From: an uncultured Bacteroidales bacterium
GTDB lineage: Bacteria; Bacteroidota; Bacteroidia; Bacteroidales; CAIWKO01
NCBI GenBank assembly: GCA_903913285.1
Contig: CAIWKO010000018.1
Coordinates: 1 to 64,000 of the forward strand
Direction of reading: 5' to 3'
DNA: 64,000 bases
The notes under the pieces were generated by a model. It saw nothing but the letters and a program-made list of their open reading frames with translations, did not search any database and had not been told where the DNA came from. The translations under genes and the position numbers were made by a program. Shown piece by piece: positions 4,162 to 51,345 of the stretch (its first letter is position 1; each line of letters opens with the position of its first letter).

Positions 4162-4197
4162 AAGGATTGCTACAGAAATTCGATTAAAAAATTAATC

Positions 4198-4448
4198 AAA
4201 CAAGCAACTTTTCACGCCAAACAATAGATATTTTAGGTGAAGCAAACGACTTTCCATGCGAAACAAACGACTTTTTATATGGAGCAATCGCTTCTTCACA
4301 CCAAACAAAGAATCGTAAACTCAAGCATGAGACTTTTTATGCCAAGCAATTGACTTTTAAGCCAAACATGAAACATTTTAGATGAAGCAACTGTCTTTTT
4401 TATGCTAAGCATAAGACATTTCACGCCGAACAATTAGAAATAAAATAC
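4198..4448 (+). repeat. Degenerate 21-bp tandem array (array 1)
   Basis: About twelve consecutive units of 20-22 bp fill the gap between the convergent genes pyk and korB. Unit starts are at 4198, 4219, 4240, 4261, 4282, 4303, 4323, 4344, 4364, 4385, 4407 and 4428. A unit opens with ARRCAA or AAGCAW, has GACTTTT in the middle, and closes with ATGCC, ATGCG or ACGCC. Conservation is loose, with many substitutions and one-base indels, but the phase holds throughout. No continuous reading frame explains it. The unit is longer than a simple microsatellite and has no spacer structure, so it is not CRISPR. Confidence 0.75.
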
Positions 4449-5565: not shown

Positions 5566-7416
5566 TTATATCTCCTTTAAAATTTGGTTAAACTTTTCTG
5601 ATAATTCGGTAACAACAAACGGCAAACCTTGAACTTTGTTGAATTGTTTGTATTTAAATTGCGGATAATTCATTTTCAGATATTGAACAAACTGGCCGGA
5701 ATTAAGTTCGCAAACAACAATTTGTTTGAATTTTCCAAGAATGTCTTCTGTGTTTTTCGGCATCGGCATGATGTGTTTGAAATGAGCGTGGCTTATTTTT
5801 TTGCCTTCTTTTATCAAATCTTCAACAGCAGTGTGAACAGCACCGTAAGTTCCGCCCCAACTAACTACTAAAAGATCGCCTTCGGGTTCGCCCAATACTT
5901 CCTGTTTGGGAAGGGTATCGGCAACCTTCATCACTTTTTCATAGCGCAGGTCGGTCATCAACTGATGATTTGCCGGATCCATGCTTACGTTTCCGATACC
6001 GTTTTCTTTTTCCAATCCTCCTACCCTGTGGCGTAAGCCTTCGGTTCCGGGTAATGCCCATTTACGAACCAGTGTTTTCGGGTCACGGTTGAATGGTTTA
6101 TAGTTGGGATCGTTTGCTGCAGCAATTGGTGGTGTTATTTTCGGAAGATCTTTTACTTTTGGTATTCGGAAAAGTTCTGAACCCTGACCGATATATCCAT
6201 CCGTAAGTAATATCACTGGAGTCATGTGTTCCATCGATAGTTTGGCGGCTTCAAAAGCGGCATAAAAACAATCGGAAGGTGATGAAGCCGCAATAACAAT
6301 AAGCGGACATTCACCGTTGCGGCCGTATAGTGCCTGCATCAAATCGGATTGTTCGGATTTGGTTGGCAGACCGGTTGACGGACCGCCACGTTGAACATTC
6401 ACGATAACAAGAGGTAATTCGGTGATAACAGCCAATCCCATTGCTTCGCTTTTCAACGATAAACCGGGTCCTGATGTGCTGGTAAGTGCCATTGATCCCG
6501 TGAAACTTGCCCCAATAGCGGAACAAATACCGGCAATTTCGTCTTCGGCCTGAAATACTTTTGCACCTAAGGATTTATGTTTCGACAATTCCATCAATAT
6601 TTCGGTTGCCGGAGTGATAGGATATGAGCCTAAAAACAAAGGCCGGCCCGAACGTTCGGAAGCGGCTAAAAATCCCCATGCAGTGGCAACATTACCCGAA
6701 ATGTTGCGATATCTGCCTTTTTCGAGGGCTGCAGCAGGAACATTGTAGGTTACGCTTATGGCTTCGATGGTTTCGGCATAATTATAACCGGCCGTAAATG
6801 CCAGTTTGTTTGCTTCCACTACAACGGGTTTCTTACTAAATTTCTTTTCAAAAAAATCGAAAGCCTTATCCTGTTTCCAGTTGAACATAAAATATATCAT
6901 CCCCAAAGCGAATATATTCCTCGATTTTTCGGCAGTTTTGTTATCCAGATTTAAGGATTTTAAACCTTCTTTATTCAGGCTTGTGATTGGAGCCGGAATA
7001 ATATTATAGTCTTTTAAACTGCCATCTTCGAGTGGATTGACTTTATAACCGGATTTTTCAATAGCTTTTTCGTCGTAGGTATCAAAATCGGTGATAATGG
7101 TAGCGCCCTTTTTTGCCCATTTAAGATTTGCTCTTAACGAAGCAGGATTCATTGCAACCAAAACATCGCACATGTCGCCCGAACTGTAAACTCTTTTGTG
7201 ACCTATGTGAACCTGAAATCCCGAAACCCCAGCAATAGTGTTGTGAGGGCCTCTGATTTCGGCCGGATAATCCGGAAAATTAGCCAAATCGTTGCCTAAT
7301 AAGGCTGCCGTATCAGAAAAGAGATTACCGATAAGCTGCATGCCGTCGCCGGAATCGCCAACAAACTTAACAACAACGTCTTCTCTGGTTACAACTTCGT
7401 TTTTCTTTTTTGCCAT
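5566..7416 (-). CDS. korA: 2-oxoacid:ferredoxin oxidoreductase, fused gamma-alpha subunit
   Basis: The protein is 616 aa from the preferred ATG at 7416, which begins MAKKKNEVVTRED. The N-terminal ~190 residues are the gamma domain, with GDSGDGMQLIGN near residue 20. The rest is the alpha domain, with the conserved SYPITPATEI near 265 and the GPGLSLKSEAMGLA region. A longer frame reaches an ATG at 7467, but the promoter motif TAACTTTG lies at 7447-7440, downstream of it, so the shorter start is favoured. The enzyme gives reversible, ferredoxin-linked 2-oxoacid oxidation in anaerobic or branched TCA metabolism. It is co-transcribed with korB. Confidence 0.93.
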   Translation of the reverse strand: MAKKKNEVVTREDVVVKFVGDSGDGMQLIGNLFSDTAALLGNDLANFPDYPAEIRGPHNTIAGVSGFQVHIGHKRVYSSGDMCDVLVAMNPASLRANLKWAKKGATIITDFDTYDEKAIEKSGYKVNPLEDGSLKDYNIIPAPITSLNKEGLKSLNLDNKTAEKSRNIFALGMIYFMFNWKQDKAFDFFEKKFSKKPVVVEANKLAFTAGYNYAETIEAISVTYNVPAAALEKGRYRNISGNVATAWGFLAASERSGRPLFLGSYPITPATEILMELSKHKSLGAKVFQAEDEIAGICSAIGASFTGSMALTSTSGPGLSLKSEAMGLAVITELPLVIVNVQRGGPSTGLPTKSEQSDLMQALYGRNGECPLIVIAASSPSDCFYAAFEAAKLSMEHMTPVILLTDGYIGQGSELFRIPKVKDLPKITPPIAAANDPNYKPFNRDPKTLVRKWALPGTEGLRHRVGGLEKENGIGNVSMDPANHQLMTDLRYEKVMKVADTLPKQEVLGEPEGDLLVVSWGGTYGAVHTAVEDLIKEGKKISHAHFKHIMPMPKNTEDILGKFKQIVVCELNSGQFVQYLKMNYPQFKYKQFNKVQGLPFVVTELSEKFNQILKEI

Positions 7417-12572: not shown

Positions 12573-12914
12573 ATGGGAAATAAAATTTCCGGTGAAATAA
12601 CCCCTGCCATTAAAACCACAGTCGAAGGTTTGGCTACAGGCGCAAAAGCCGCGATGCCTTTTCTGCGCAATGCAACTAAAAAAGAGCGCGAAACCCTCCC
12701 CAAAATGGGCCTTCAAAGAGCAGGTTTTGTCGACAAAGCTTATGCTGGTGCGCTCGCACATACTAACAAATTGCCCGGCGATTTCGATATGGCTGAATTT
12801 ACAAAAGATGCCAAATTGAAGGTCGATCTGCCCTACATCAGGCAAATTTTTGTTGATATGGTAGAATTGGTTGATGATACCTCATTATTGCTCGGCAACG
12901 ATTTGATTATGTAG
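12573..12914 (+). CDS. Conserved hypothetical protein, N-terminal part before in-frame TAG
   Basis: The frame encodes 113 aa beginning MGNKISGEITPAIK and ending in GNDLIM before TAG at 12912. It has the strongest ribosome-binding site in the window. The sequence resembles a small Bacteroidetes hypothetical family with a LPKMG motif (residues 42-46) and a VDDT motif near 100. In that family, as I recall it, the protein continues through a VYNYAK-like segment. Here the matching VYNHFK lies just after the stop codon in the same frame. The protein has no signal peptide and is predicted helical. Function is unknown. Confidence 0.6.
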   Translation: MGNKISGEITPAIKTTVEGLATGAKAAMPFLRNATKKERETLPKMGLQRAGFVDKAYAGALAHTNKLPGDFDMAEFTKDAKLKVDLPYIRQIFVDMVELVDDTSLLLGNDLIM

Positions 12915-12941
12915 GCAAACTATGTCTACAATCATTTCAAA

Positions 12942-13277
12942 TTGGTGACCGATAATGAAGATATCAAAACTCTTGTTGCAGAAATGGGTGCTGAATACAA
13001 AGGTCTCGGTGTAAAAAAAGCCGTTTCCACCTTCACCATTCCCCAATCGGTAACAATTTCAGTTACCAAAGTTATTACGGGAAAGATTTTGGTGAACGAC
13101 GGTACTACCGTTATTCAGTTCAAGCCTGGTAATGATTTGGCTGGTAAAGTACGTGAGGCTCAGCCAATTACGGTTCACCCGGGAGACTCTGCTATCATCC
13201 CAAAAGGATGGACAAGCATTGATGTAATTAACCTCAGTGCTACTACGCAAGGTAGTTTTGCCGTAAAGGTAAAATAA
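12942..13277 (+). CDS. C-terminal part after the TAG, possible separate ORF
   Basis: This 111-codon frame (GTG at 12942) is in phase with the upstream ORF. Its first ~35 residues (VTDNEDIKTLVAEMGAEYKG) look like the end of the upstream helical domain. The rest (ISVTKVITGKILVNDGTTV and on to FAVKVK) is beta-rich and could form a small sandwich. No ribosome-binding site or promoter precedes the GTG, so independent translation is doubtful. It is more likely the second half of the interrupted gene. No family is recognised. Confidence 0.4.
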   Translation: MVTDNEDIKTLVAEMGAEYKGLGVKKAVSTFTIPQSVTISVTKVITGKILVNDGTTVIQFKPGNDLAGKVREAQPITVHPGDSAIIPKGWTSIDVINLSATTQGSFAVKVK

Positions 13278-13327: not shown

Positions 13328-13370
13328 GAATTCGCAACTGCGTTGTATCGGGTTGCGAATTCGCTTTTTC
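13328..13370 (+). terminator. Terminator after the interrupted gene
   Basis: A perfect 11-bp stem, GAATTCGCAAC (13328-13338) and GTTGCGAATTC (13352-13362), has a 13-nt loop and is followed by GCTTTTTC. A second, smaller hairpin (GGTAACCG and CGGTTATC, 13293-13313) lies just upstream without a T-tract. Both follow the TAA at 13277. Confidence 0.8.
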
Positions 13371-13456
13371 AGGAAGCAGGCAGGCGTGTCTGGCCCGGCT
13401 TCTGCTTCACTCATTAAAATAGCTCAGAAAGCTACCAACAACCCTCGCAGAAGCCA

Positions 13457-13710
13457 GCCTCATAGCTCAGTTGTCTTAGGTTACCCTTACACAACTGAGC
13501 TCATCCCCTTGCTAAGCATGCTCATTTGGTAGCTAAGCTAGCCCTACCCCTCAGACAAGTGAGCCTATATGCTTGCTAAGCGAGCCCATGAGCTTGCTAA
13601 GCATGCCCATTTGGTAGCTAAGCATGCCCTAGCCCTCACAGAAGCTAGCCTTACCCCTCAGTGAAGCTAGCAATTTGCTGAGTGAAGTGAGCCCACTTGG
13701 TCCAAACTGA
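13457..13710 (+). repeat. Degenerate 21-22-bp tandem array (array 2)
   Basis: About twelve units of 20-22 bp start at 13457, 13479, 13499, 13520, 13541, 13563, 13584, 13605, 13626, 13648, 13670 and 13691. Most units open with GCCCAT, GCTCAT or GCCCTA and close with GCTAAGCAT, GAAGCTA or AAGTGA. The array is GC-richer than its surroundings. Less regular copies may extend upstream to about 13400. It lies between a terminator and the promoter of the DUF4175 gene. No coding frame explains it. Confidence 0.75.
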
Positions 13711-13738
13711 GCAAAAACCATTTCCAATTCACCTTTCT

Positions 13739-13858: not shown

Positions 13859-16800
13859 TTGGCCGAACCCACAAACATATTGATCCATAAGCTCAATCTT
13901 TTTATAAAGAAATATTATAAAAACGAATTGCTCAAGGGCCTCATGCTGTTTGTTTCCTTTGCCCTTGCCTTTTTCCTGATTATAGCCGTGCTCGAATATT
14001 TCGCCTGGTTCCCCACCGTGGTGCGCACCGTTTTGTTCTATTTATATATAGGTGTAAATTTGTTTGTGGCCTGGCGGTTCGTGGCCATACCTGTTTTTCG
14101 CCTGTTTAGCATCGGCAAAACCCTCACCCACGAGCAGGCAGCCCGCATCATTGGCCATTTCTTTCCCGAGGTGAGCGACAAACTTCTCAACGCGCTTCAA
14201 CTGCAGGCTGTCCCGGCCCAAAACACGGCAAGCGCCGAACTGCTCGAAGCCTCCATCAACCAAAAAATCCGGAAGCTCTCCCCCATTCCGTTCACGGCTG
14301 CTATCGATTTTCGCATCAACAAAAAATACCTAAAATACGTGCTGCCGCCAACCGTGGTGCTGGTGGTGCTGCTCATTGTTTCGCCGGCCATAATAACCCA
14401 GCCGTCGAACCGCATCATCAACTACACCACCTTTTTCGAAAAACAGGCTCCTTTCCGTTTCGTGGTGCTCAACACCGATTTGAAGGCCGTGCAGCAACAA
14501 GATTTTCAACTTAACGTGAAACTCACCGGCGACCAGATTCCCAACGAAGTCTATCTGGTTTCGTCCGGCAACGAATACAAACTCACCAAAGAAACCATCG
14601 TGATGTTTCATCACACCTTTAAAAATCTGCAGAAAGATCAGTCGTTCTATTTGCGGGCAAACGGTTTCCGCTCCAAAGAATATACCATCAGCGTTATTCC
14701 CAAACCCATAATTCTCGATTTCGAACTCCAGCTCAACTATCCGGCCTACACAGGCAAAAAGAACGAAACCCTCCAAAACTCCGGCGATTTGTCAGTACCT
14801 TGCGGCACCGAGATTAGCTGGAAGATAAAAACCAAAGACACCAAAAAACTCTGGTTTCAGTTTATCGATAAAAGCTTCTTTCTGCAGCCAGGTTCCGACA
14901 ACCAGTTTGCCTACAGCCGCCATTTTTTTGTTACTCAGAACTATTCGGTGGCCACCTACAATGAATTCATCAGGAACCCCGATTCGCTGCAGTATAACAT
15001 AAATGTAATTCCCGATGCCTATCCCTATATCGATTTAAAAGAATATCACGATTCGCTTTTCGACAGCCATCTTTATTTCAAGGGAATGATAAAAGACGAT
15101 TACGGCTTCAACAAGCTTCTGTTCAAATATAAGAAAACCGACCCCGACAACAAAGAAGAACCCGAGCAAACCCGCGTAATAACCATCAACAAGCTCCTCA
15201 ATCAGCAGGATTTTTACTATTATTTCGATCTTTCGGGTTTGGGTGTTCAGCCCGGCGAAAACATCGAATACTATTTCGAAGTGTGGGACAACGATGCCAT
15301 AAAAGGCAGCAAAGCCACGCGTTCGCAGAAAATGGTTTTCAAGGTGCCTACCCTGGACGAAATTCAAAAACAAACCGACCAGAACAGCGATAACCTGAAA
15401 GACAAAATTGATGAAACCATAAAAGATATCAATCAGCTTCAAAAGCAAATCGACGACCTCAACAAAAAACTGCTTGACAAAAAAAACCTCGACTGGCAGG
15501 AACGCAAACAAATCGAGGATCTGGTGAACAAACAGCAACAGATGCAAAAAAATGTGGAAGACCTGAAACAGGAAATCCATCAAAACAGCGTAAAGGAACA
15601 GCAGTTCAAAACCGTCGACCCGTCCATACTCGAAAAACAAAAGCAACTCGAAGACCTTTTCAACAAAGTGATGACCGACGAGATGAAAGATATGTTCAAA
15701 CAAATGCAGGACATGCTCGACAAGTTAGACAAGAATAAGGTGAACGAGATGCTGGATAAAATGAAACTATCCAACAAAGACATCGAAAAAGAGCTCGACC
15801 GCAATCTCGAATTGTTCAAACAACTCGAATTCGAAAAGAAGATGTCCGAAACCATTGATAAGCTTCAAAAGCTTTCAGAGCAGCAAAAAAATCTTTCCGA
15901 ACAAACCAAAGACGAAAACAACAAGTCCGACAAATTGCTCGAACAGCAAAAGGATGTCAACAACCAGTTTAACGATGCCAAAAAAGACCTTCAGAATTTG
16001 GATGATTTAAACAAAAAGCTTGAGAACCCGAAGAACCTCGAAAAGACTGATGAAAAACAGAACTCCATTCAGCAGGAATTGAACAACAGTCAGAACCAGC
16101 TTCAGAACAACAAACGCAAGAATGCTTTCAAATCGCAACAAAATGCAGCCGAACAAATGGAGCAACTTGCCAACGATTTGCAAAAGAATCAGGACGAAAT
16201 GCAGGACCAGGCCGACGAGGAAGATGCTCATGCCCTGCGCGAAATTCTGGAGAACTTGCTGCGTGTATCTTTCGGTCAGGAAGATTTGATTGCAAAGCTT
16301 AAAAACACAAATGTCTCCGACCCGAAGTATATTGGCATTATGGACAAACAAAAAGATTTGAAGGACGATTTAGGTATGATAGAAGATTCGCTGCTGGCAT
16401 TAAGCAAGCGTCAGGCCATGATTCAGCCTCTGGTGAACCGCGAGATTTCACAAATAAATGATAATGTTACCAAGAGTCTTGAATTGCTCCACAGTCGAAA
16501 TGTGTCTATAGCCCAAAAGGCACAGCAATATGTGATGACATCTGTAAATAACCTGGCGCTGTTATTAGCCGAATCGCTTCAGCAGATGGAACAGCAAAAC
16601 AAAAACAAATCAAACAAATCCTGTAAAGGAGGATCATGCAAAAAACCCGGAGGTGGCAAACCCTCTGCCGCATCAATGAAAATGATGCAGGAAATGCTCA
16701 ACAAACAAATGGATGCTCTCAAAAAACAGATGGAAAACGAAGGAAAAACGGGCGATCCGGGTAAATCAGGTCAGGATGGACAATCCATAAGCGAACAATT

Positions 16801-17212
16801 GGCGCGTTTAGCAGCACAACAGGAGGCCATCCGCCAAATGATGCAGCAATATGGCGAAGATTTGAAAAAAGAAGGAACCGGAAACGATGGAAATATAAAC
16901 GAGATCATGAAAAAAATGGAACAAACCGAAACCGATCTCGTGAACAAAGTAATAAATGCAGAAACCCAAAAACGACAAAAAGAAATTCTCACTCGATTGC
17001 TCGAATCCGAAAAAGCCGAGAAAGAACGCGAGTTGGATGATAAGCGGGAATCGAATGAAGCAAAAGAAAAAAATTACAGTAACCCAAATCAATTTTTTGA
17101 GTATAAAAGATTAAAATCGCAGGAACTTGAATTATTAAAAACAATTCCTGTAACTTTAACCCCGTTTTTTAAGTATAAAGCTAACGAATATTTTTATAAT
17201 TTTGCTGATTGA
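13859..17212 (+). CDS. DUF4175 family membrane protein with long coiled coil
   Basis: This is a 1117-aa protein of the Bacteroidetes DUF4175 family. Three hydrophobic segments lie near residues 25-48, 52-75 and 150-172. An extracytoplasmic beta-rich region follows to about 500, and then a very long Gln/Lys/Asp/Asn-rich coiled coil (about 510-960). A Gly/Ser-rich linker and more helix end the protein. The start is TTG at 13859, because the N-terminus (ILIHKLNLFIKKYYKNELLK) matches what I expect for the family and no ATG lies close by. Function is unknown. The stop overlaps the next start by one base. GC content is visibly higher in the 5' part than in the genes that follow. Confidence 0.88.
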   Translation: MAEPTNILIHKLNLFIKKYYKNELLKGLMLFVSFALAFFLIIAVLEYFAWFPTVVRTVLFYLYIGVNLFVAWRFVAIPVFRLFSIGKTLTHEQAARIIGHFFPEVSDKLLNALQLQAVPAQNTASAELLEASINQKIRKLSPIPFTAAIDFRINKKYLKYVLPPTVVLVVLLIVSPAIITQPSNRIINYTTFFEKQAPFRFVVLNTDLKAVQQQDFQLNVKLTGDQIPNEVYLVSSGNEYKLTKETIVMFHHTFKNLQKDQSFYLRANGFRSKEYTISVIPKPIILDFELQLNYPAYTGKKNETLQNSGDLSVPCGTEISWKIKTKDTKKLWFQFIDKSFFLQPGSDNQFAYSRHFFVTQNYSVATYNEFIRNPDSLQYNINVIPDAYPYIDLKEYHDSLFDSHLYFKGMIKDDYGFNKLLFKYKKTDPDNKEEPEQTRVITINKLLNQQDFYYYFDLSGLGVQPGENIEYYFEVWDNDAIKGSKATRSQKMVFKVPTLDEIQKQTDQNSDNLKDKIDETIKDINQLQKQIDDLNKKLLDKKNLDWQERKQIEDLVNKQQQMQKNVEDLKQEIHQNSVKEQQFKTVDPSILEKQKQLEDLFNKVMTDEMKDMFKQMQDMLDKLDKNKVNEMLDKMKLSNKDIEKELDRNLELFKQLEFEKKMSETIDKLQKLSEQQKNLSEQTKDENNKSDKLLEQQKDVNNQFNDAKKDLQNLDDLNKKLENPKNLEKTDEKQNSIQQELNNSQNQLQNNKRKNAFKSQQNAAEQMEQLANDLQKNQDEMQDQADEEDAHALREILENLLRVSFGQEDLIAKLKNTNVSDPKYIGIMDKQKDLKDDLGMIEDSLLALSKRQAMIQPLVNREISQINDNVTKSLELLHSRNVSIAQKAQQYVMTSVNNLALLLAESLQQMEQQNKNKSNKSCKGGSCKKPGGGKPSAASMKMMQEMLNKQMDALKKQMENEGKTGDPGKSGQDGQSISEQLARLAAQQEAIRQMMQQYGEDLKKEGTGNDGNINEIMKKMEQTETDLVNKVINAETQKRQKEILTRLLESEKAEKERELDDKRESNEAKEKNYSNPNQFFEYKRLKSQELELLKTIPVTLTPFFKYKANEYFYNFAD

Positions 17213-50879: not shown

Positions 50880-51135
50880 TGTACTACAAGCATTCGTTTC
50901 TTTAAAATAAATTCAAGAATTTATCCTTCACCCTGCGCTGCGGCCATAATTGATATACCGACTCAGGCCGGAGCCTGAGCCGAACGGTGGTTTTGGTTAG
51001 AGATTTTTTGAATTGATTTGTTAATTAATTCTTAACAGAATTTTTGATTAATAATTTAGTTTGTTGGTTATTAATATTTTAATTTGTTTTCGATGTTTCG
51101 TATTTTACATTTTAATTGTCGTTGACTCCATTTTG
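50880..51135. other. Non-coding stretch with a GC-rich hairpin
   Basis: No gene is supported here. A GC-rich island at 50935-50995 holds the perfect hairpin CTCAGGC (50962-50968) and GCCTGAG (50973-50979) with a CGGA loop. The rest is T-rich and leads into the 21-bp array. Confidence 0.5.
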
Positions 51136-51345
51136 TACTTCATTGTCGTTATTTTATACTTCGTTGTTCAGATTTTGTACTTCATTGTCGTTATTTTATA
51201 CTTCGTTGTTCGGATTTTATACTTCATTGTCGTTATTTTGTACTTCGTTGTTCAGATTTTGTACTTCATTGTCGATATTTTATACTTCGTTGTTCAGATT
51301 TTATACTTCATTGTCGATATTTTGTACTTCATTGTTCAGATTTTG
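51136..51345 (-). repeat. Exact-phase 21-bp tandem array (array 3)
   Basis: Ten units of exactly 21 bp, each starting TACTTC on the plus strand, fill 210 bp with no indels (starts 51136, 51157, 51178 and so on to 51325). Units alternate between type A (TACTTCATTGTCGWTATTTT plus A or G) and type B (TACTTCGTTGTTCAGATTTT plus A or G), so the true higher-order period is 42 bp; the tenth is an A/B hybrid. Degenerate units flank both ends (51115-51135 and 51346-51366). On the minus strand each unit reads as a heptad (N-x-N/D-N-E-V plus Q or a TAA stop). The plus-strand frame is open only because the period is a multiple of three. Confidence 0.85.

Follow-up and report, generated by a model that had tools for sequence, protein, structure and literature searches.

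What kind of element is the GC-rich tandem repeat that lies between a small gene and a DUF4175 gene in this stretch of Bacteroidales DNA, and does it stand alone? Within the 64,000 nucleotides analysed (hereafter the window), the first-pass annotation had proposed an array of twelve 21–22 bp units at 13457–13710. Autocorrelation of that interval confirms the periodicity: the self-match at lag 21 is 0.438 (z = 6.0), a value reached by 0 of 2000 dinucleotide shuffles (shuffle maximum 0.392 across lags 5–70), and further periodic lags are evident at 64 (21+21+22; z = 5.4), 43 (z = 3.3) and 22 (z = 3.1). The array is longer than proposed, however; autocorrelation and unit cutting together place it at about 13405–13715, with ~13–14 units and no assigned strand. 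Cutting its minus strand at a recurrent GCT/GCA start yields 13 pieces, of which ten have the expected size (20–22 bp), one is 41 bp long and contains an inverted pair of units (13464–13501, an inverted repeat of 17 nt with 88% complementarity, likewise unstranded), one is 24 bp and the last is 35 bp. By our reading the units fall roughly into two types, GCTNRCTTNNNTGAGGGGTAG and GCATGCTTAGCWASCAAATGG. The motifs said to open and close each unit are present but sparse (GCYYAT occurs five times, GCTAAGCA three times and GAAGCTA twice), while the palindromic core AGCATGCT, said to recur where units join, occurs a single time, at 13515. Dyad symmetry is not above that of a column-permuted control (z 0.5, p 0.41), which presumes strict 21-bp columns where this array mixes 21 and 22. 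The GC content of 0.50 exceeds that of the right flank (0.35) and of the window (0.37) as described, but equals that of the left flank (0.50).

The position of the array was also correctly described, after a terminator and ahead of the DUF4175 gene. The upstream neighbour is a small plus-strand gene of a family that we call B2 (12573–13277), broken by an in-frame TAG at 12912–12914 whereas the orthologues in the sister species G001 and G003 have open frames; the window copy may be a pseudogene, be subject to readthrough or contain an assembly error. It is followed by an inverted repeat with a T run (13328–13369, plus strand; 11-bp arms, 13-nt loop) that resembles a terminator as read from the sequence. 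A terminator scan covering loops of 3–8 lists none there, and a similar terminator-like inverted repeat is also present in a sister species. Downstream lies the DUF4175 gene itself (13859–17212, plus strand; PF13779, E 1e-8). The promoter that had been placed between the array and this gene was not recovered there by a sigma-70 scan. Used as a DNA query against the whole genome, the array finds only one other locus, a second copy at C36:216069–216290 that is 79% alike, and a search of 58 relatives at E 0.001 gives no match.

Two further arrays of the same class but with different units lie in the window, as the label 'Array 2' had implied: one at 4190–4440 (lag 21 z 6.2 for 4180–4440) and one at 51130–51345 (units of 21/42 bp; TRF score 376, lag 42 z 17.7), neither assigned to a strand. 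Across 462,306 bp comprising the window and more of the same genome (G000), strong self-match runs cover 5649 bases at lag 21, 0 at lag 20 and 123 at lag 22, with 5475 and 5155 bases at the multiples 42 and 63. A replicate sample of 232,589 bp gives 2234, 87, 0, 2037 and 1845 bases at lags 21, 20, 22, 42 and 63, respectively. TRF detects 71 arrays of at least 80 bp in 1,241,616 bp of G000, a cut below which the arrays at 13405–13715 and 4190 fall and which leaves them outside the 71. The period is 21 in 42 of these and 41–43 in 11 more (seven of 42, three of 41 and one of 43), the remainder comprising one of 20, one of 40 and 16 others. The sister species G001 has 20 arrays in 255,613 bp: thirteen of period 21, three of 43, and one each of 22, 42, 63 and 105. 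Contigs C15 and C17 of G000, and C2, C3 and C172 of G001, begin inside 21- or 43-bp arrays. Array counts may be underestimates, because the assemblies seem to break in arrays. In other genomes, many lag-21 runs were rejected as arrays, since by position and sequence they were judged to be coiled-coil coding sequence.

The feature common to these arrays is the 21-bp period rather than the GCTAAGCA core. The 57 arrays of period 20–22 resolve into 52 unit families, with five pairs alike (among them C36:148892/149753 and C36:209812/233129), and beyond these pairs the similarity between units is about that of shuffled units. At C36:194370–194730 and at ~47.9 kb of C22 (L206:2364–2429) a single unit appears, by eye, at two loci, with a gene of the family B1 (described below) at only one and no family gene at the other, which suggests that arrays are copied between loci. 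No base-composition wave of 10.5 or 21 bp is found across the 52 units and, for this reason, there is no sign of selected intrinsic curvature, which we rejected as a basis for the period. Arrays occupy 56 of 378 intergenic gaps of at least 150 bp, and two arrays were classed as largely coding, with open frames that consist mainly of array excluded from the genes. There is no clear preference for gap orientation (6/30 convergent, 34/243 codirectional and 16/105 divergent gaps contain arrays). GC content averages 0.41 in arrays against 0.31 in their flanks and is the higher in 48 of 56. Of the 66 distances measured on the start-codon side, 65 are at least 67 bp and one is 14 bp (gene starts predicted by script). 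The array at 13405–13715 is a member of a mostly intergenic class in which the shared feature is a 21-bp period (sometimes 41–43) and the unit is usually particular to the locus. The first-pass annotation missed both this genome-wide class and its partial pairing with small gene families.

The same observations make up much of the case for the main rival to the reading that we prefer below, namely a mutational process that duplicates DNA of any sequence in quanta of 21 bp and leaves functionless arrays to persist between genes, where they are harmless. Units that are mutually unrelated and lack a composition pattern, a location in intergenic gaps rather than in coding sequence, the indifference to gap orientation, and array edges that seem degenerate by eye would all be expected of such a process. 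Two-copy duplications point the same way: near-exact ones outside arrays are few, and 21 bp is by a slight lead their commonest length from 16 up, with three in G000 (other lengths 0–2) and three in G001 (other lengths 0–1), two of the six lying at contig starts. We regard a length-quantised origin as a serious possibility, if short of an even chance, and the evidence that runs against it comes from particular genes and from the sister species.

The length of 21 bp is also that of seven codons, and many arrays are open in one frame, as they would be if they encoded seven-residue peptide repeats. Open frames are, however, expected whenever a stop-free unit is repeated, and in arrays of period 41 or 43, as in one of period 22 bp with 0% indels, each unit falls in a different frame from the one before; we consider a coding role extremely improbable.

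Some of the genes adjacent to arrays group into five small paralogous families (A–E). A family gene lies within 600 bp of 25 of 73 arrays and none does at the other 48, including C36:216069, 4190 and 51130; the latter figure again fits a mutational origin. Twenty-three of 28 family members are at most 300 bp from an array, as compared with 95 of 1147 genes in G000 and G001 (p 6e-22), a figure that is biased in that the families were chosen because their members adjoin arrays; the distances behind it were entered by hand. Family C has a CarboxypepD_reg match. B2 genes have an array on their 3' side at all five loci (the window, C10:14037, G001 C68:50362, G001 C68:91063 and G003), of which the window, G001 C68:91063 and G003 are orthologues. 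The gene at C36:232317, with its array 5', was a co-seed with C10:14037, but its relationship is uncertain (E 0.008 against the other profile). None of the B1 and B2 proteins tried has a confident family in Pfam, NCBIfam, PHROGs, PADLOC or PDB sequences; the weak matches are CHB_HEX_C_1 for the B1 protein of genome G221 (E 6e-4, below the cut-off) and a PADLOC model for B2 (E 0.002). From a structure model of B2 with a pLDDT of 40.5, only the order of elements was used, helices and then strands. The G221 protein has no relative in phages, plasmids or viral contigs at E 1e-3.

Because families A–E were defined by array adjacency, a search for B1 in other genomes is the cleaner test. The gene at C36:24188, used as query against 295 genomes of the order, gave 25 matches in eight genomes, and a search of 395 genomes across the phylum with the G221 member added three loci in G548 and seven in G455. 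Within the 500 bp upstream, an array with a TRF score of at least 50 and a period of 21 or nearly a multiple of it precedes the start codon by 45–304 bp (median 118) at 29 of 35 B1 loci, in nine genomes of eight genera. Omitted from the 35 is a locus with an 1831-aa open frame and no array (G683:C43), with which the count becomes 29/36. The six loci without an array are G000:C38 (a 138-aa fragment), G042:C10, G042:C87, G171:C162, G216 (whose gene has internal stops) and G455:C42 (a 165-aa open frame). The discovery sample accounts for three of the 29; outside it an array is found at 26 of 32 loci (binomial p 4e-23 relative to the 8.3% of G000 and G001 genes that lie within 300 bp of an array, an approximate baseline given that B1 loci were scored over 500 bp upstream and in other genomes). 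Identity in other genera is 26–46% to the B1 query and 21–37% to the G221 member, many matches outside G000, G001 and G171 covering only part of the query. A portion of the class accompanies small gene families, lying 5' of B1 genes and 3' of B2 genes. In 307,464 bp from the seven other B1-bearing genomes, all of it free of B1 genes, 15 places have a period of 21 or 41–43, as compared with one such place in 319,578 bp of ten genomes without a B1 match, places being counted whether coding or not. No other 21-bp array was found in the stretches read of G171 (33,972 bp) and G271 (19,001 bp), and that the 5' pairing with B1 holds even in these two genomes speaks against a purely mutational origin.

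A second observation that such an origin leaves unexplained is the enrichment of dyads in the B1 arrays. For 20 of these, dyad symmetry exceeds a control in which columns are permuted within the 21-bp unit (Stouffer z 9.5, Fisher p 1.8e-8); in 62 other arrays it is weak (mean z 0.64, Fisher p 5e-4), and we limit the dyad claim to B1 for this reason. As with the array in the window, the strict 21-bp assumption of this control is broken by the 22-bp array of G001. A first dyad test on 27 unit consensuses had been negative (Fisher p 0.31), and the later stem test on array DNA was chosen after the B1 arrays had looked palindromic. Perfect stems of at least 5 in 29 B1 arrays are 2.6–5.2 times as frequent as in the control at 11 of 13 loop sizes (0–5 and 7–11), the enrichment being lower at loop sizes 6 and 12, and five B1 arrays, from four genera, contain GGAA..TTCC dyads (null maximum 3).

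Dyads at this spacing would also be expected if the arrays were transcribed and acted as RNA, presenting short hairpins every 21 nt upstream of the gene, and the folding energy of B1 arrays is indeed better than that of column-permuted arrays (mean z -2.1). The advantage is, however, alike on the two strands (-2.11 sense, -2.21 antisense), and stems with loops of 0–2 nt, too tight for a full RNA hairpin, show about the same enrichment as those with loops of 3–5. In addition, the array at 13405–13715 has no stem excess and no Rfam match, the sole Rfam match within the window being a tRNA. Action as RNA accordingly seems quite improbable to us. A connection with prokaryotic Argonaute through guide length was rejected, as PF02171 is found in only G000 and G015 of eight genomes and is lacking from the array-bearing G001 and G003. 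The gene concerned in G000 encodes a Piwi domain (C20:89725–90549) and has no match in three congeners.

Among B1 loci the similarity of arrays does not follow that of the proteins (Spearman 0.04, p 0.47), which speaks against B1 proteins as sequence-specific readers of the arrays. In one pair with proteins 84% identical, array similarity is 0.55 (null mean 0.52, null maximum 0.61). Among the four pairs whose proteins are at least 70% identical, however, two have arrays above every null value, so that array turnover is not always fast, and some pairs from different genera exceed the null maximum (0.77 for G171 and G548).

Arrays were also compared between the sister species. Both syntenic intervals tested in G001 hold arrays, of periods 42 and 22, whose units differ by eye from those of G000, and the G000 arrays used as DNA queries have no match to these syntenic counterparts. 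The interval corresponding to the 4190–4440 array is among those that hold an array in G001; its gene content differs between the two species through gain or loss, so that the spot is not exactly equivalent. Over the intervals between adjacent orthologues of the G000/G001 syntenic block, arrays are present in both species at two, in neither at 20 and in one only at none; counterparts for both arrays of the block argue against the mutational process. On the DUF4175 side, the sister-species gap holds an array with a 22-bp unit common to G001 (22.5 copies) and G003 (11.6 copies), the B2 proteins of which are 96% identical. Such a difference in copy number between sister species is again in keeping with a mutational origin. 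A tendency to 22 bp in this gap is common to G000, G001 and G003. In the Bacteroidales UBA5371, two apparently noncoding 21-bp arrays with a common unit are seen (L055:2303–2449 and 5856–5995), one of them directly upstream of that genome's DUF4175 gene.

Resemblances of this sort also bear on whether the period is a fossil, that is, whether one ancestral 21-bp array was copied around and drift erased its sequence while the period survived. The 13405–13715/C36:216069 pair, the C36:148892/149753 and C36:209812/233129 pairs, the unit seen at both C22 and C36:194370, the 22-bp tendency in the DUF4175 gap and the few B1 arrays that are alike across genera are all consistent with copying. An unselected period should, however, also have drifted to 20, 22 and 23, which is rarely seen, and descent from one array explains neither the same period beside B1 genes in other families and classes nor their dyads. 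We judge a fossil period to be improbable.

Twenty-one base pairs correspond to two turns of B-DNA, and the explanation of the class and its pairing that we tentatively prefer is a sequence-tolerant platform for binding or DNA architecture with a two-turn spacing. The array would be a cis-acting element offering one site in each unit for the assembly of a protein along a single face of the helix, and might organise or insulate the control region of the paired gene. The recogniser would more likely read shape (a dyad, a bend or phased repetition) than a fixed sequence, because the units drift while the period, and in B1 arrays the dyads, persist. Copy number would change by whole units, preserving helical phase, and concerted evolution could swap the unit while the period survives. 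Such a platform appears to fit best because it accommodates at once a constant length, a largely free sequence, changes in copy number, the two-turn spacing and the dyads of B1 arrays. Against it stand the array in the window, which has no dyad excess and lies 3' of its B2 gene, the missing composition wave, and the many arrays with no gene of families A–E. That 21 bp is the commonest two-copy duplication and that only about a third of the arrays (25/73) have a family gene led us to lower our estimate for the platform and to raise that for the mutational process.

A more specific version of the platform is suggested by a segment within the B2 gene of the window (13119–13154, plus strand), FKPGNDLAGKVR, which equals the C-terminus of the genome's HU protein except for the last residue. 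The HU C-terminal segment KFKPGNDLAGKV, with variants, is found in frame in six array-linked proteins that belong to different families, and also ends a 229-aa protein without a nearby array. Its DNA pattern is found at eight places in G000, HU included (sites in the window, at C48:69798–70067 (L190), and at L182 and L184–L188), as compared with none in three congeners, none for a reversed-pattern control and no match in viral contigs. HU is a structure-reading DNA binder. A small protein gene and an array of 21-bp sites could conceivably form a new kind of chromosomal module, the array being read by shape and phase rather than by sequence, that captures or mimics HU and builds a local nucleoprotein filament; a private sequence in each array copy would then be tolerated as long as the geometry stays constant. 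The presence of the HU segment in several array-linked proteins would fit capture or mimicry of this kind, which we nonetheless consider unlikely.

Plasmid iterons and operator arrays are tandem sites of ~17–22 bp with two-turn spacing, often adjacent to the gene of their binder. The present arrays resemble them in having tandem sites at that spacing and a gene nearby, but nearly every locus has its own unit (52 families among 57 arrays) and there are dozens of arrays per chromosome. One conserved site beside a Rep or regulator gene was not what we found, and the family proteins scanned (a subset of the array-side genes) have no match to a replication or regulator family. CRISPR arrays consist of near-identical repeats separated by unique spacers, and TIGR-Tas systems combine a Nop-domain Tas protein with interspaced guide pairs. 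Like these, the arrays can lie near genes of one family; unlike them, their units are contiguous, as the 20–22 bp pieces at 13405–13715 illustrate, without unique spacers, and no known effector gene was recognised. REP/BIME elements, associated with RAYT transposases, are short palindromic intergenic repeats with a common consensus in many dispersed copies, whereas here there is no common consensus and the array at 13405–13715 has a single other locus. A link to RAYTs was rejected, as 18 of 20 genomes have the Y1 transposase (PF01797) whether or not they contain arrays, and so was one to reverse transcriptase (PF00078), which is absent from the array-bearing G548 and G271. Bacterial minisatellites (VNTRs) are intergenic tandem repeats with copy-number variation, and tandem repeats that vary in copy number between relatives are what the 22-bp array of G001 and G003 displays; the differences are that a single period dominates the genome and that part of the class is paired with particular gene families. 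The tandem repeats of Borgs are described as many independent, fast-evolving, genome-specific arrays with unique units and a generator that is unknown, the units being perfect, without SNPs, of variable length and about half of them in genes (PMC9879509). The present arrays share with that description their large number, independence, fast evolution, genome specificity and private units, but differ from it in that units vary within an array, are mostly 21 bp long and lie mainly between genes.

A search of the open PMC literature found no description of such arrays. General bacterial minisatellites are the nearest known kind, and the class suggests an undescribed kind of DNA element. A repeat class set by exact length instead of sequence would be a cis element invisible to sequence-similarity methods, and makes it possible to ask whether selection can act on DNA geometry by itself; an unannotated protein family also gains a defined context beside arrays in distant Bacteroidota. 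A tandem repeat of another length is seen in G000 at C28:12459–12687, where 8-bp units (CTAAAAAG and CTAAACGG) lie ~0.7 kb from a 21-bp array.
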